Assembly (NCBI GenBank): GCA_025352795.1
Contig: JANXSF010000106.1
Coordinates: 1-64,000, forward strand
Length of the DNA: 64,000 nucleotides
Source: Acidobacteriota bacterium
GTDB taxonomy: Bacteria > Acidobacteriota > Terriglobia > Bryobacterales > Bryobacteraceae
Direction: 5' to 3'
The first letter of the stretch is position 1; every line of letters starts with the position of its first letter. A program made the position numbers and the translations under genes. The notes below the pieces were generated by a model. It saw only the letters and a list, made by a program, of their open reading frames with translations. It had not been told where the DNA came from and did no database searches. Below, in pieces: positions 46,446-51,573 of this stretch.

Positions 46446-46991
46446 TTAGTAGGTCAAAGTTTCCAGACGACGCAAATGAACCGGATTCAGTAAAAAATCT
46501 AAATCCAGCACCCATACTGTTTCGTCCTCTAGATGAACTTTTCCTCGAAGAAATTGTAGTGGAATTTGCGGGTGCGGTTCGTTGATCACCGCAGTTGGGC
46601 CGAACTCCACGGTGGCCTCCAGTTGCTCCACTATAATCCCCGCCCTGATTTGAGGATCAGATGGAAGGCTCACCAGAATGATGGTTCCTTTGGTCGATAC
46701 TTCTCCTGGATGAAGGTTCAACTTCGGTCGCAGATCCAAGACCGCAAGCGCTTTGTTTTGGCTAAAAATAAACCCAACCATGTCGAAGCCTGAATTCAAT
46801 GCTGGGATCAGACTTTGCGCTCCCATCACGCCTCGCACAGTTTCCGCTCGCAGGCAAAACGCTTGCTTGCTCAATCGAAAACGAACATACTTTTCCGGTG
46901 GCGGTTGCGGCTTTGCCAAGCCACCAAGATTTCGCTGCGGACCAACGTGGGCCGCCACATGTGCGTCTGAAGTTTCCAAAATGTCATTCAT
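46446..46991 (-). CDS. cheW: CheW-like chemotaxis coupling protein
   Basis: 181 residues from ATG 46991, preceded by AGGAA seven bases upstream; a longer frame to 47045 overlaps the previous gene more. Residues about 35-150 match the CheW SH3-like double barrel: YVRFRLSKQAFCLRAETVRGVMG, LAVLDLRPKLNL, ILVSLPSDPQIRAGIIVEQLEATVEF. It would couple a receptor to a CheA kinase, which is not in the window. It overlaps the CheX gene by 8 bases. Confidence 0.85.
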   Translation of the reverse strand: MNDILETSDAHVAAHVGPQRNLGGLAKPQPPPEKYVRFRLSKQAFCLRAETVRGVMGAQSLIPALNSGFDMVGFIFSQNKALAVLDLRPKLNLHPGEVSTKGTIILVSLPSDPQIRAGIIVEQLEATVEFGPTAVINEPHPQIPLQFLRGKVHLEDETVWVLDLDFLLNPVHLRRLETLTY

Positions 46992-47538
46992 GATCTGTTC
47001 CTGATCTGTGTAGTCTGCCCACAGTTCCTTGTTTACCCGCGTCATTCTGAATCAGGCAAACTTGCACCAGCAACGTTTCAGAATCAAACTGAAATGGCAC
47101 CACGGTCCAACCATTGCTGCCACCACATTTTGTCAAAAAGTTCCGTCCGAAAATTACCGTCGGAATGCTTAAACCCATGCTGCCCACTTTTTCTTCCAGC
47201 ATTGTTTTGACGTTGCCGATCACCATGTTTGTAATTTCGCCAATGGCATCCAGCACCTCTTCATCCACTGCGCCAAATTCAGTCAGCAGCAACGCGCTGG
47301 ATATCTTGCAGGCTATCTGCGGGCTGCAACTGATGCTCCCAGTCCCCATCCAAGGACCGGTTAAACCAATCAGGCTGAGCACTCCATCCGTCGGCCCCTG
47401 AGACCCACTGTTGGTGATGGCAATGCCTGCCTCAACATCTAAGCCCAACATGGTACTAAACACGTTGGCGGTGCTTTTCTTTACTGAGTGGATCAGCAGC
47501 TCCTGCATTTCCTGGATGGTTATTGTTGACGACGTCAT
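46984..47538 (-). CDS. cheX: CheX/CheC-type chemotaxis phosphatase
   Basis: 184 residues. The CheC/CheX phosphatase motif is DAIGEITNMVIGNVKTMLEE, with the paired Glu and Asn that attack phospho-CheY. The N-terminal half is the usual alpha-beta scaffold, and the C-terminal 20 residues are a non-conserved extension. It probably dephosphorylates the CheY product encoded directly upstream, whose gene it overlaps by 4 bases. Confidence 0.85.
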   Translation of the reverse strand: MTSSTITIQEMQELLIHSVKKSTANVFSTMLGLDVEAGIAITNSGSQGPTDGVLSLIGLTGPWMGTGSISCSPQIACKISSALLLTEFGAVDEEVLDAIGEITNMVIGNVKTMLEEKVGSMGLSIPTVIFGRNFLTKCGGSNGWTVVPFQFDSETLLVQVCLIQNDAGKQGTVGRLHRSGTDHE

Positions 47539-47909
47539 TGGATGATTCCAGCCAGCTTCTCTTTAATCTGATCTGCAGTAAATGGCTTGCGCACATAGCC
47601 GTTGGCACCCAAACTCACTGCCTCCATCACTTTGGCCTGACTTCCCTCGGTGGATATCATCACCACTGGAATGGATTTCCAAAGGTCATTTGCTTTTATT
47701 TCTCGAAGCATCTGAATGCCATCCATATTGGGCATGTTGATATCTGAAAAAATCAAACCAACGCTGTTGTTTTTCAAGCACTCCAAAGCCTCAATGCCAT
47801 CCCCTGCTTCATATACATCGCCCAATGGCACCTCTGCTTGAATCAATACGCGGCGCAGGATTTTTCGAATCGCAGCAGAATCGTCAACTATCAAAACATC
47901 CAGAGCCAT
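47535..47909 (-). CDS. cheY: CheY-like response regulator
   Basis: 124 residues, a receiver domain only. Phospho-acceptor Asp56 is in LIFSDINMPNMDG; the acidic pair is VDDSAAIRK near the start, Thr/Ser is in VVMISTEG, and the conserved Lys is in YVRKPFTAD. It is the first of a CheY-CheX-CheW run, apparently a small signalling module of unknown target, next to the c-di-GMP protein gene and convergent with it. Confidence 0.93.
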   Translation of the reverse strand: MALDVLIVDDSAAIRKILRRVLIQAEVPLGDVYEAGDGIEALECLKNNSVGLIFSDINMPNMDGIQMLREIKANDLWKSIPVVMISTEGSQAKVMEAVSLGANGYVRKPFTADQIKEKLAGIIQ

Positions 47910-47922
47910 AGCATCTCCAACG

Positions 47923-47940
47923 GGTTATTGTTAAATAACC
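47923..47940. promoter_or_regulatory. Palindromic stem-loop between exporter and cheY
   Basis: GGTTATT, four bases, AATAACC form a perfect 7-base-pair dyad in the 55 bases between the DMT exporter stop and the cheY start. It has no T run, so it is more likely an operator or an RNA structure than a classical terminator. Its GGTTA/TAACC half-sites resemble the GTTAACC core of the repeats at 43678-43752. Confidence 0.35.
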
Positions 47941-47964
47941 TCATCGGGTTCAAATGGTTTGGCT

Positions 47965-48828
47965 TTAGGGAATTTTAGAAGTCTCGGGAGCCTGCCAGGC
48001 AGTGTGCACTAAAACACCCAACAGAATAATGGCTCCCCCGGCCATCGCCTGTGGACTTGGTGATTCATGGTGCGCAACCCAGGTCCATACTGGATTCAAC
48101 GCTGGTTCCACCAACAGAATGAGTGATGCTGCAAGTGCCTCCACATGGCGCACGGCCCGGCTCATCAAGACGTAGGACAGCCCAATTTGGATAATGCCAA
48201 GATACAAAATAACCAGCGTGTCAGACATACTCAAACGGTCTACCGGCAACGCCATTGGCAGTGTGATCAAAAATGTGATCGCATTGCCCAGCACCACCGG
48301 TGCCAAATTACCGCCTTGCACTTTGGATAGCCAACGGACGCCCAACAAGGTACCCGCCCAGGTAAGCCCGCTGAGTGCTGCCAACGCATTTCCAAAGGCT
48401 GGATGCGGGGCTAAGCTACTCACTTTCGTGGAATCGAAATAGAACAGGCTCATCCCGAATACCAGCCATCCAGCCATCAGAAAATCGCCTCCACGGGCAG
48501 GTTCCCGCAACAGGATGGGTGCGGCGAACAATAGGTATAACGGTCCAGTGGCCTGTAGAAAAATAGCGTTTGCGGATGTCGTATTCTTGGTCGCAAACAC
48601 AAAGAGAATCAAGGTGGCCGCATACGTGAAGGACACCGGAACCATACGCCAGGTCCAACTTTTTCGAGCCTCTGGAAGTAGCAGCCATAACGCCAATGCC
48701 GCCACGCCCGATCGGAATCCAGCCACCTGCCAGGAATTCAATTGGCAAGCCTTGATTGCTGCACCGCCAGTTGAAAACAAAAAAGCAGTGGCCAGCAGCA
48801 GGTAGCGGCCCTGTGTATTCTGATTCAT
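47965..48828 (-). CDS. DMT-family (EamA) transporter
   Basis: 287 residues with ten predicted membrane helices in two EamA repeats: first repeat LLLATAFLFSTGGAAIKA, second repeat NALAALSGLTWAGTLLGVRW. It probably exports an amino acid or a related metabolite. The stop of the upstream 914-residue gene is immediately before its start, so it may be the second gene of a unit that begins at 51573. Confidence 0.88.
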   Translation of the reverse strand: MNQNTQGRYLLLATAFLFSTGGAAIKACQLNSWQVAGFRSGVAALALWLLLPEARKSWTWRMVPVSFTYAATLILFVFATKNTTSANAIFLQATGPLYLLFAAPILLREPARGGDFLMAGWLVFGMSLFYFDSTKVSSLAPHPAFGNALAALSGLTWAGTLLGVRWLSKVQGGNLAPVVLGNAITFLITLPMALPVDRLSMSDTLVILYLGIIQIGLSYVLMSRAVRHVEALAASLILLVEPALNPVWTWVAHHESPSPQAMAGGAIILLGVLVHTAWQAPETSKIP

Positions 48829-51573
48829 CTATGCCGATTGCGACGCCATACGATTGGCGCAGACGCTACGCACGGCAAGCCCCAATAACCGCGCATCATC
48901 GGAGAGCCCCAGCGCCCTTGGACTCCGTGCATCGGGACACTCAATGGTCAACAGCAATTCCCCTCCCACCAGTAGCAATTCCTGGGGGATACGAACGGCC
49001 AGCCTGGGCATTGGCGCACCAAACGTGAACAGCCATTCCGCCACCCGATGGCCGTTAGCCAGCATTCTAATCCGTTGACTGCGATGGTTCTCCGTAACAA
49101 AGCCGTAGCCATCGAAGGTCAATTGGCAGGAGAAGTTTCCAGCAAGGCGCATCAACAAAAGGGCTTGTTTACCGCACGTCCAAGACCCCCAATCCTCAGC
49201 AATAGACCATCCGGCTACGCAGAGATTGTTTCCTTGTCCGCCGACGCGAAACGACCATGGGTCACCCCATTCTGGAGTTGGAATTGCCCCACGGCCAGCT
49301 TGTTCACCAGCGCAACTGATCTCAAAAAAGTAACGTTGCCCAATGGTCCTGGCATCGGTCAAGTGCTGCGGATCGGCAATATAAGTATCGGCTAGCAAGC
49401 CTGCCCGCTGCATTTTATCCAGATACGAACGTTTGTGCTTGCGGTAGTTGGAAAGAACACCCAACAATTCCGTTACCCGCTGAGATTCAATCCAGGGAGC
49501 CGAACTGGCATCGCTCAAATAGGAACAGATAACGTCCAATATGCCTGATAACCCCACTGATCCGAAATCCCTGGATTCTTTTGCTGCGGTTATTCTAGCA
49601 GCGATTTCAGCCGTGCTTGAAACCGGCAGCACCTCGTGCAACCAGGGAATGCGGCGCAACCAATATTGCTCCAGTTCAAACAGCAATCCGGCGCTGGCAT
49701 CCAACATCAGCCTCATTGCCGGACCCAGTTCGCCGCTCAATAAATTTCCTTCAATCAGGAACTCCTTGCGCAGTTCCTGATCCCTTGCGATGCACAGTTC
49801 AACCGACGCCGGAACGCGGCAGCCTAGTAGCAAAAGCGCCTGTCGAACATGGGTGAAACTGTGCAGGAAAGCAAGAATGGTTCGGAAGTCCGTCTGCTGA
49901 CAATCGGCCAGCGTAAACAAGTCGCCAGGGTATTTTCGACAGTTATAAGCGGTGATGGCCACGGCTACGGTGTTCTTTGGCATGGACATTGCATCGCGCA
50001 GCGGCAACTCCCGCCCAACTAAACGACGCACGGCCATCATCGGATAGATCGTGGAAAAATCTTCAACCGCATCCAGCGGCAGAATTTGTGGATCGTGGCC
50101 CATCAGGTACTGTTGCCGTTCAGACAATCGCAGATTGGAAAAAAATTCTTTGCCAATGCCATCACGCAGCACAAACAATAAGTCCAAATCGGAAAGCCCA
50201 GGGCATTCCACGGAACCATACTCGTAGATCGCTTCTACTTTCCCACTGGCCATGGCCCGCTCTTTCCATTCGTCGCGCAACTGGTCATACTCTTTCAAAC
50301 CCATTGTTTTGGGGCGATCCACCACTTCATAAGGCCAGCCACCAACCATCACCGGCTCCGCTTCAAACAGTTGCCGATGGTTCAATTCGAACAATTCCGC
50401 CGAAGCCAGGCACATGTACCTGCGACCCTCTTCCAGCAGCCCTTCATTCAGACCCATCGATTCCCGTTCTGCAGCAGTCAATCGCATGGTCTGCTTGTGT
50501 TGCCTCAAACAAAGGCCAGGGTTCAGCACACCCCTCACTGGCCAGTTGTCATCAGCCAGACGGGAATTCATCCAATGACCCAAAGCCAACCGCGCCTGCG
50601 TAGTTTTGTTTAGAAAGGGATGATCAATGTTGGTCAACAAATCGCGCTTCCAAACGGAGACGCGCTCCTGTAATTGATACTCCAGGCAAGGAACCAAACT
50701 GGTGCAGGAGATCCACCAAAGCGCATCAAATGCAGTTTTCAACTGCGCCGCACGCAAGAAATTACGTTCAAAGAATCGTTCAAAAACCCGGATGGCATGG
50801 CCCGCTTCCAAATCGCCATTGACGTATTCCACTTCTGGTGCCCGGCCAACCAGCAGCACAGAGTTCGCCAATATCGCCGATGGCAAGGTGGATTCCGTGG
50901 CCCAGCCCAATGCCTCCTGAAAATAAATCATCGGGCCGTGGTGCATCAAAGGTTGATACGCCAACAGGAAATCATTGATCTGAAAAACAGAGCTAATCTG
51001 CTTCAGGAAAGATTCCTTCGATTGTGGCAAGCGCAAAATAGCGATCACATCGCAATCGCTATAACCTTCCACCACCCCGCCATCGGCCAAGCTGCCTTGC
51101 AATAGCAGACTTGCCAAGCCGGTAAAATCGTTGCTGGCGAACTGCACCATCTGTTCAATCAGATTCTTGCGTTGAAATTGGACGCTGGTTTGCCAGTGTG
51201 CCAGTGGTCGCAAATTGGGTGCATAGCGGCGGTCTGGACGCGCAGTCTTACTTCGTTCCTCAGCACAGGCCCAAAAAGCTTCATGCAGGCATTCTGCCAA
51301 TCGTTCCCCGGTTAATTCCTGCCCCGCCATCCGACCCAATTGCATTTGTGGAAACAGGACATCTAATTCCGGCATCACCGGGCAATAGAAGCGCGCCCTC
51401 CGCCAACCTTCCAAGCGCAAAGGTTCCCCAGTCCATATAGGGGCATAGGTGAGTGACCCGTATAACCCCATCAAGCGGCTCCACAAAATGCGGGACAAAT
51501 GATCTCTGTTGGAATTGGCTAATGCGCGGTGAAAAAATTGGTCGGATAGAAAATCGAATCGGGTTTGCGCCAT
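48829..51573 (-). CDS. Protein with two nucleotidyltransferase domains and C-terminal beta-sandwich
   Basis: 914 residues. Two Pol-beta-type nucleotidyltransferase motifs are visible: LLLQGSLADG...GYSDCDVIAIL (Ser161, Asp173, Asp175) and YEYGSVECPGLSDLDLLFVL (Ser454, Asp462, Asp464). Each is followed by a long helical stretch, so the protein looks like an internal duplication. Residues about 775-905 form a beta-sandwich with AGWSIAEDWGSWTCGKQALLL and a late SPRALGLSDDARLLGLA, a pattern I associate with the C-terminal domain of surface-glycan glycosyltransferases (DUF7024-like). The acceptor is unknown. It could nucleotidylate a sugar, an RNA or a protein. It has no membrane segment and precedes the DMT exporter gene. 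Confidence 0.7.
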   Translation of the reverse strand: MAQTRFDFLSDQFFHRALANSNRDHLSRILWSRLMGLYGSLTYAPIWTGEPLRLEGWRRARFYCPVMPELDVLFPQMQLGRMAGQELTGERLAECLHEAFWACAEERSKTARPDRRYAPNLRPLAHWQTSVQFQRKNLIEQMVQFASNDFTGLASLLLQGSLADGGVVEGYSDCDVIAILRLPQSKESFLKQISSVFQINDFLLAYQPLMHHGPMIYFQEALGWATESTLPSAILANSVLLVGRAPEVEYVNGDLEAGHAIRVFERFFERNFLRAAQLKTAFDALWWISCTSLVPCLEYQLQERVSVWKRDLLTNIDHPFLNKTTQARLALGHWMNSRLADDNWPVRGVLNPGLCLRQHKQTMRLTAAERESMGLNEGLLEEGRRYMCLASAELFELNHRQLFEAEPVMVGGWPYEVVDRPKTMGLKEYDQLRDEWKERAMASGKVEAIYEYGSVECPGLSDLDLLFVLRDGIGKEFFSNLRLSERQQYLMGHDPQILPLDAVEDFSTIYPMMAVRRLVGRELPLRDAMSMPKNTVAVAITAYNCRKYPGDLFTLADCQQTDFRTILAFLHSFTHVRQALLLLGCRVPASVELCIARDQELRKEFLIEGNLLSGELGPAMRLMLDASAGLLFELEQYWLRRIPWLHEVLPVSSTAEIAARITAAKESRDFGSVGLSGILDVICSYLSDASSAPWIESQRVTELLGVLSNYRKHKRSYLDKMQRAGLLADTYIADPQHLTDARTIGQRYFFEISCAGEQAGRGAIPTPEWGDPWSFRVGGQGNNLCVAGWSIAEDWGSWTCGKQALLLMRLAGNFSCQLTFDGYGFVTENHRSQRIRMLANGHRVAEWLFTFGAPMPRLAVRIPQELLLVGGELLLTIECPDARSPRALGLSDDARLLGLAVRSVCANRMASQSA

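Follow-up and report, generated by a model that had tools for sequence, protein, structure and literature searches.

Tandem nucleotidyltransferase gene and domains of its product

The window analysed here is the whole stretch of 64,000 nucleotides from contig JANXSF010000106.1 of an Acidobacteriota bacterium (family Bryobacteraceae), and it contains on the minus strand (51573..48829) a gene encoding a tandem nucleotidyltransferase (NTase). The 914-residue open reading frame (ORF), which an original prediction made from the sequence had listed with no strand, is real. It encodes a rare protein, so far uncharacterised, in which a tail of sugar-binding-like type follows two nucleotide-transferring domains. 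The protein as a whole is covered by no Pfam or NCBIfam family: the NCBIfam search shows no match up to E 10, and Pfam shows only NTP_transf_2, at E 0.084 and short of the cut-off. Neither GlnE (PF03710) nor LicD (PF04991) is found by Pfam up to E 10, in a search whose filters drop most matches above 0.1, and the protein falls outside the curated NCBIfam/Pfam membership of the aminoglycoside nucleotidyltransferase family. Against the sequences of solved structures, the best match of the whole protein reaches an E of only 0.41. Its own genome contains a single match to the whole 914-residue protein, and none of the literature titles listed deals with a tandem NTase of comparable kind. The combination of domains had been put forward as an unfamiliar one, and no characterised family with full-length matches emerged.

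The two GS...(S)DxD sites that had been proposed about 290 residues apart are both present, at a distance of 293 residues, and are conserved in ten tandem loci, whose alignment comprises 211 ungapped columns for site 1 and 168 for site 2. Site 1 shows 13 invariant positions (G160, S161, A163, S172, D173, D175, H211, H212, G213, P231, P295, K309 and R328) and site 2 shows six (G453, G459, S461, D462, D464 and H493); the position of the site-2 GS serine is occupied by S, N, T, L or E. The hG[GS] and [DE]h[DE] patterns of the Pol-beta/NTase superfamily are found at site 1 in all the loci, as are the G and the DxD at site 2. Motifs invariant in 10/10 loci disfavour a chance origin of the sites and, because the DxD and the histidine are kept at both sites in every locus, neither of them looks retired, so that the earlier suggestion of one retired copy is not supported. 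In other NTases the third acid is located on a later strand, as described in excerpts of two papers (PMC6965139, PMC11646218), and the equivalent in the model is the strand 215-218, directly after H211-H212-G213. Besides the DxD pairs, only the columns of D311 and D551 are acidic in at least eight of the ten loci (8/10 each), and both are away from the strand expected to bear the third acid. The models of both halves place the invariant histidine just before this strand; the fold tools give no residue-level superposition, and the histidine may, judging from the models, stand in place of the third acid. Tam41, which belongs to the NTase superfamily, has just one of the three acids (PMC11646218, excerpt).

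Both GS/DxD stretches are predicted to form Pol-beta-type NTase domains, each followed by a helical domain, as had been anticipated. In the full-length model, residues 126-397 match AadA (4cs6) with a VIA Z of 9.5 (206/260 residues, root-mean-square deviation (rmsd) 3.9), and the second half matches 6un8_B with Z 8.1 (197 residues, rmsd 7.1). The site-2 half folded by itself gives a good model, with a predicted local distance difference test (pLDDT) of 82 and a predicted template modelling score (pTM) of 0.84, and it matches 7uy4_A, an ANT(3'')(9), with Z 7.8 (190/258 residues, rmsd 3.9), in the range below 8 that can reflect a common arrangement. The 14 best VIA rows of this half are all NTases, and the first other protein, a helical one, shows Z 6.2. 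With best Z values of 9.5 and 7.8, the agreement of the predicted models of both halves with solved NTases is moderate, and both show the NTase plus helical acceptor domain typical of aminoglycoside nucleotidyltransferases. LicD is outside the fold rows shown, which excludes nothing. In the full-length Foldseek search AadA follows two first matches, with E 0.012 and probability 1.00, and the site-2 half shows no Foldseek match at E<=0.001. The Pfam NTP_transf_2 cut-off (21 bits) is passed by site 1 of two relatives, in genomes G312 (28.2) and G557 (24.7), and site 1 of the window protein and of genome G704 falls short of it; the four best matches of the site-1 profile among PDB sequences are NTases (E 0.0024-0.09).

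A duplication, which the original prediction had considered, is borne out by profile alignment and by the tree of the cores. The profiles of site 1 and site 2, each of 10 sequences, align with E ~2.1e-5, probability 77% and score 46.3, with H212 opposite H493. The best of 100 column shuffles scores 21.4, in a comparison that used the 20 best of the 100 ranked by score, and the reversed profile scores 16.8. Smaller sets give E 5.6e-4 and probability 30% (five sequences), and E 1.6e-5 and 79% (six sequences). In the tree, which is unrooted, built on short cores and with several weak branches, a branch with support 0.99 parts the 10 site-2 from the 10 site-1 sequences, and in the site-1 part the window's group joins the flagellin-linked group with support 0.93. 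This fits, as far as the sequences tell, one old duplication before the spread of the family, with both copies retained.

The C-terminal beta-sandwich, which had been described as otherwise found at the end of glycosyltransferases, shows a predicted carbohydrate-binding-like fold: residues 781-913 match the carbohydrate-binding domains of the cellulose-synthase protein BcsB with VIA Z 8.3, and CBM22/CBM35 modules with Z of about 7. Twenty-one copies of the domain align well, with two Trp, one Asp and one Arg invariant. Pfam DUF7024 (PF22895) is found at E<=1 in 7/21 aligned copies, with a best E of 1.1e-5, and the window copy is not among them; the copy of genome G090 reaches E 0.0024 and 18.2 bits for a cut-off of 24.4, and the host protein of locus L014 reaches 19.5 bits. 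Six host proteins of the domain were scanned with Pfam, from 25 loci in which proteins are cut at the locus ends: three contain GT2, one contains a sulfatase and two show no clear enzyme domain. The sulfatase of genome G140 (L024 1492-3426) ends in the same DUF7024-like domain. At the sensitivity used, the window's genome contains one copy of the domain.

Table 1. Features of the tandem NTase gene and of the adjoining gene, with coordinates in the window
Feature	Coordinates	Strand	Basis
Tandem NTase gene	48829..51573	-	ORF listing and translation; 914 aa, ATG start, stop codon included
First half, residues 126-397, NTase + helical domain, AadA-like (predicted)	50383..51198	-	VIA, site-1 profile vs PDB
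Site 1 G160-S161	51091..51096	-	10/10 loci
Site 1 S172-D173-C-D175 (S172-D173-x-D175 in family)	51049..51060	-	S172, D173, D175 in 10/10
Site 1 H211-H212-G213	50935..50943	-	10/10 loci; just ahead of strand 215-218 in model
Second half, residues 422-693, NTase + helical domain, ANT-like (predicted)	49495..50310	-	VIA, full-length model and half alone
Site 2 G453-S454	50212..50217	-	G453 in 10/10; serine varies in relatives
Site 2 S461-D462-L-D464	50182..50193	-	S461, D462, D464 in 10/10 loci
Site 2 H493	50095..50097	-	10/10 loci; in register with H212 (site-1/site-2 profile alignment)
C-terminal beta-sandwich, residues ~770-908, DUF7024-like, carbohydrate-binding-like fold (predicted)	48850..49266	-	alignment, Pfam, VIA
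EamA/DMT transporter gene	47965..48828	-	Pfam EamA 1.7e-23; starts on base after NTase stop

Relatives and their gene context

The genomes covered are 257 of the window's order, a sample of 396 of the phylum, one of the two of the family of G312, 41 of the class of G557 and a sample of 391 of the class of G650 (Bacterium BMS3Abin03). The order scan shows matches to the window protein in 24/257 genomes (own included), most of them over the C-terminal domain only; within the order, the matches of the window, G090 and G088 extend to the NTase part, and the match of G089, a C-terminal fragment at a contig end, was left out of the ten loci. G650 was found as a relative in the same scan. The phylum sample shows matches in 5/396 genomes (own included): G312 and G557 are true relatives, and G569 and G631 are weak, single-site matches. 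The class sample around G650 shows 5/391 (G650, G769, G993, G959 and G704), and the class of G557 shows 1/41, G557 itself. Nine relatives contain both sites: two belong to the window's bacterial family, two to other acidobacterial families and five to the BMS3Abin03 class. The family is rare and scattered in the genomes sampled. G312 and G704 encode the two halves in separate genes that lie side by side, and the copy of G088 (L003, L038) shows a frameshift between the second NTase half and the C-terminal domain.

The weak single-site matches (G569, G631, G149, G153, G154 and contig C115 of the own genome) were dropped, and the three that were read (G569, C115 and G154) were taken for generic small NTases. 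A generic single-site NTase of ~240 aa is located between TPM-like and LemA-like proteins (names by eye) in the own genome and in a relative (L046 1492-2202; L051 1516-2277). Neither residues 1-760 of the window protein nor the BMS3Abin03 module matches any of 72,556 plasmid records, a search of 50,697 phage records likewise gave no match, and of 28 candidate stretches in viral contigs not one fitted; given these results, an origin in a mobile element or phage is unsupported. An initial pattern scan of genome contigs also gave no fitting stretch (0/5).

The seven loci outside the window's bacterial family all lie among glycan genes: three are near flagellin and four are with glycosyltransferase or polysaccharide genes. 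Between the NTase ORF and the flagellin gene there are two ORFs in G650 and G769 and one in G993, and all three have a GT2-TPR gene beside flagellin. One very long ORF of G650 combines the tandem module with TPR, methyltransferase, GT9, GT2 and GT4 domains, the module of G993 is joined to GT9, Glyco_trans_1_2 and GT2 domains, and in G769 the glycosyltransferase domains are on the next ORF and not fused. The long ORF of G650 (L036 7602-18152, L072) is an open frame of 3940 aa with several GT2 domains, near flagellin, FliD and FlgB/FlgC/FliF-like genes (Flg/FliF by eye). Among the four loci with glycosyltransferase or polysaccharide genes, G959 contains NTP_transferase, an RmlC-type epimerase, two more epimerases and GT2/GT4 alongside; G704 has a polysaccharide flippase, NTP_transferase, a methyltransferase and a GT4 as neighbours; G557 shows a methyltransferase gene and then a GT2-GT4 gene downstream; and G312 is flanked by a polymerase-like membrane gene (by eye, no Pfam match) and a GT4, with a glutamine amidotransferase next. 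The G959 protein (L075 6155-10963) shows an unusual fusion of the tandem NTase to TPR, at its C-terminus, and radical-SAM domains. A methyltransferase is adjoining or fused in 4/7 of these loci (G650, G557, G704 and G959). Within the window's family, two outer-membrane beta-barrel genes are found near the G088 copy (six ORFs scanned), and the 7.6 kb contig of G090, read by eye, shows no glycan gene.

This context bears on two explanations with a protein as target. A direct nucleotidylation of flagellin or of a glycosyltransferase, by which the flagellar or polysaccharide pathway would be modified at the protein level, would agree with the three relatives located one or two genes from flagellin, with the TPR fused N-terminally in G650 and C-terminally in G959, and with the protein AMPylators DrrA and MntA among the fold matches. 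It is nevertheless unlikely: no flagellin was seen in the stretches read around G312, G557, G704 and G959, where part of the ORFs were scanned, and the window copy bears a carbohydrate-binding-like domain. A two-way enzyme similar to GlnE, the glutamine synthetase adenylyltransferase, with one half nucleotidylating a protein target and the other half removing the modification, would account for two homologous NTase-plus-helical halves per chain, since the halves of GlnE catalyse opposite reactions (PMC11646218, excerpt); the first half matches the N-terminal domain of GlnE with VIA Z 6.8 and the protein AMPylator DrrA with Z 8.7. But GlnE is absent from the Pfam matches, the own genome contains a true GlnE of 959 aa, the halves are split into two genes in G312 and G704, and the seven relatives from outside the family have glycan genes around them, which together make such an enzyme distinctly improbable.

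Neighbouring genes in the window

The neighbours of the tandem NTase gene include genes encoding CheW, an EamA transporter, an amidase and a DegT-type aminotransferase, among others (13 scanned with Pfam, located from 34.8 kb upwards). The fragment 46446-48828 contains CheW, CheX-like (by eye) and response-regulator genes and then the EamA transporter gene, of the drug/metabolite transporter (DMT) type, and this block is syntenic in G149, of the same genus (L060). The DMT gene directly follows the NTase gene, as had been noted, with zero spacing to the stop codon. G149 contains no tandem NTase and shows another gene, of 295 aa, in its place within the block; the one DMT homologue detected in each of G088 and G090 does not share a contig with the NTase. 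The DMT-NTase pairing is local and not conserved, and a functional link is improbable. The proposal of a small molecule or antibiotic that the NTase would modify and the DMT protein would export is not supported: the DMT start codon directly after the NTase stop and the closest folds, which are aminoglycoside nucleotidyltransferases, speak for it, but synteny of the DMT gene in the absence of the NTase, its location on other contigs and the glycan genes around the seven relatives make it very unlikely.

A signalling or defence NTase producing a nucleotide messenger is hardly to be expected here. The window protein weakly matches an oligonucleotide cyclase of PADLOC (E 0.0046) and the second half matches HalB of Hailong with VIA Z 5.5, but such matches are expected of any NTase fold, and the Pfam names read in the neighbourhoods, which were not scanned against PADLOC, are not those of defence genes.

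Proposed activity on glycans and comparison with known systems

The reading to which we give an even chance is that the tandem Pol-beta-type NTase modifies glycans, putting a nucleotide or another phosphate-linked group on a sugar. It builds on the sequence, the conservation and the gene context of the relatives, which are observed directly, and on the duplication, the folds of both halves and the carbohydrate-binding-like domain, which are supported computationally. The protein is probably soluble. Each half would have the build of an aminoglycoside nucleotidyltransferase, in which the G(S) and SDxD of the NTase domain would bind metal and nucleotide and the helical domain would close on the acceptor, and the C-terminal beta-sandwich might grip the glycan or a lipid-linked precursor of it. 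In the most likely reaction, a sugar hydroxyl would attack a nucleotide-activated phosphate, and a surface polysaccharide or a flagellin glycan would end up with a nucleotide or, in the style of LicD and fukutin-related protein (FKRP), with a phospho-linked small group. The two sites would probably serve two steps or two acceptors, and the window copy is presumed to act like its relatives.

Several points weigh against an action on glycans. As far as they were read, none of the three loci from the window's bacterial family is a glycan locus; in the window, a single GT4 lies on the opposite strand at a distance of about 8 kb, and the DegT-type aminotransferase at about 9 kb. The flagellin- and polysaccharide-linked members may have different targets. 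Residues 781-913 also match beta-sandwiches not related to glycans, such as a phage tail-tip protein (Z 8.0) and reelin (Z 7.5). Neither site has an invariant third acid in the ten loci, so that transfer of a nucleoside monophosphate through the common two-metal mechanism cannot be taken for granted. In none of the proteins scanned does site 2 pass a Pfam cut-off, and the best E of its profile with solved NTases is only 0.19. As a whole, the full-length model is weak (pLDDT 61, pTM 0.42), the two Foldseek matches that it gives at E<=0.001 look like chance, with long alignments of rmsd >30, and the VIA Z values of 7.8-9.5 for the NTase halves are modest.

Phosphodiester-linked methylthreonine is known from flagellin glycans, and a route through a CDP-linked intermediate with a methyltransferase has been proposed for it (PMC11833859, excerpt). 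The methyltransferase in 4/7 loci would fit a route akin to this one. A more specific proposal, tentative and rather unlikely as a whole, is an undescribed tandem-NTase family, with histidine for the third acid, that would build phosphodiester-linked decorations, perhaps nucleotide-containing and perhaps methylated, on surface polysaccharides and flagellin glycans, and whose sites would act successively, one activating a small group with a nucleotide and the other transferring it to the sugar. A group of this sort, if real, would hint at glycan modifications that can escape routine sugar analysis. The residues D173, D175 and H212, and D462, D464 and H493, are the set in which it can be asked whether histidine can replace the third acid.

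Aminoglycoside nucleotidyltransferases have a sugar hydroxyl as acceptor. AadA/ANT(3'')(9), AAD(9) and ANT(4') show, like the window protein, an NTase and a helical domain in one chain with GS...DxD; the window protein differs from them in its two copies, the lack of an invariant third acid, the additional carbohydrate-binding-like domain, the glycan gene context of its relatives and the lack of a curated family match. GlnE also has two homologous NTase halves and a similar total length, whereas the window protein shows no GlnE Pfam match, coexists with a separate GlnE, lies in another context and ends in a beta-sandwich. DUF7024 (PF22895) is a C-terminal beta-sandwich at the end of glycosyltransferases, comparable to the tail of the window protein, but the window copy is under detection and is joined to a nucleotidyltransferase. 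In the literature examined, LicD and the fukutins make up the glycan-acting enzymes of NTase fold. FKRP, which adopts this fold, adds ribitol-phosphate to a glycan (PMC6965139, excerpt), the capsule enzyme CpsC is a LicD member (PMC11666461, excerpt), and both LicD and FKRP, as these excerpts present them, place phospho-linked groups on glycans; the relatives of the tandem NTase are found in a glycan gene context. In contrast, the window protein shows no LicD Pfam match, and FKRP keeps three acids (PMC6965139, excerpt). The tandem arrangement, the invariant histidine together with the missing third acid, and the association with loci for flagellin and polysaccharide would be new; if the proposed activity is true, the tandem NTases would be a second glycan-acting group, duplicated and altered in the active site, which the LicD model does not match and which is located near flagellin and polysaccharide genes.

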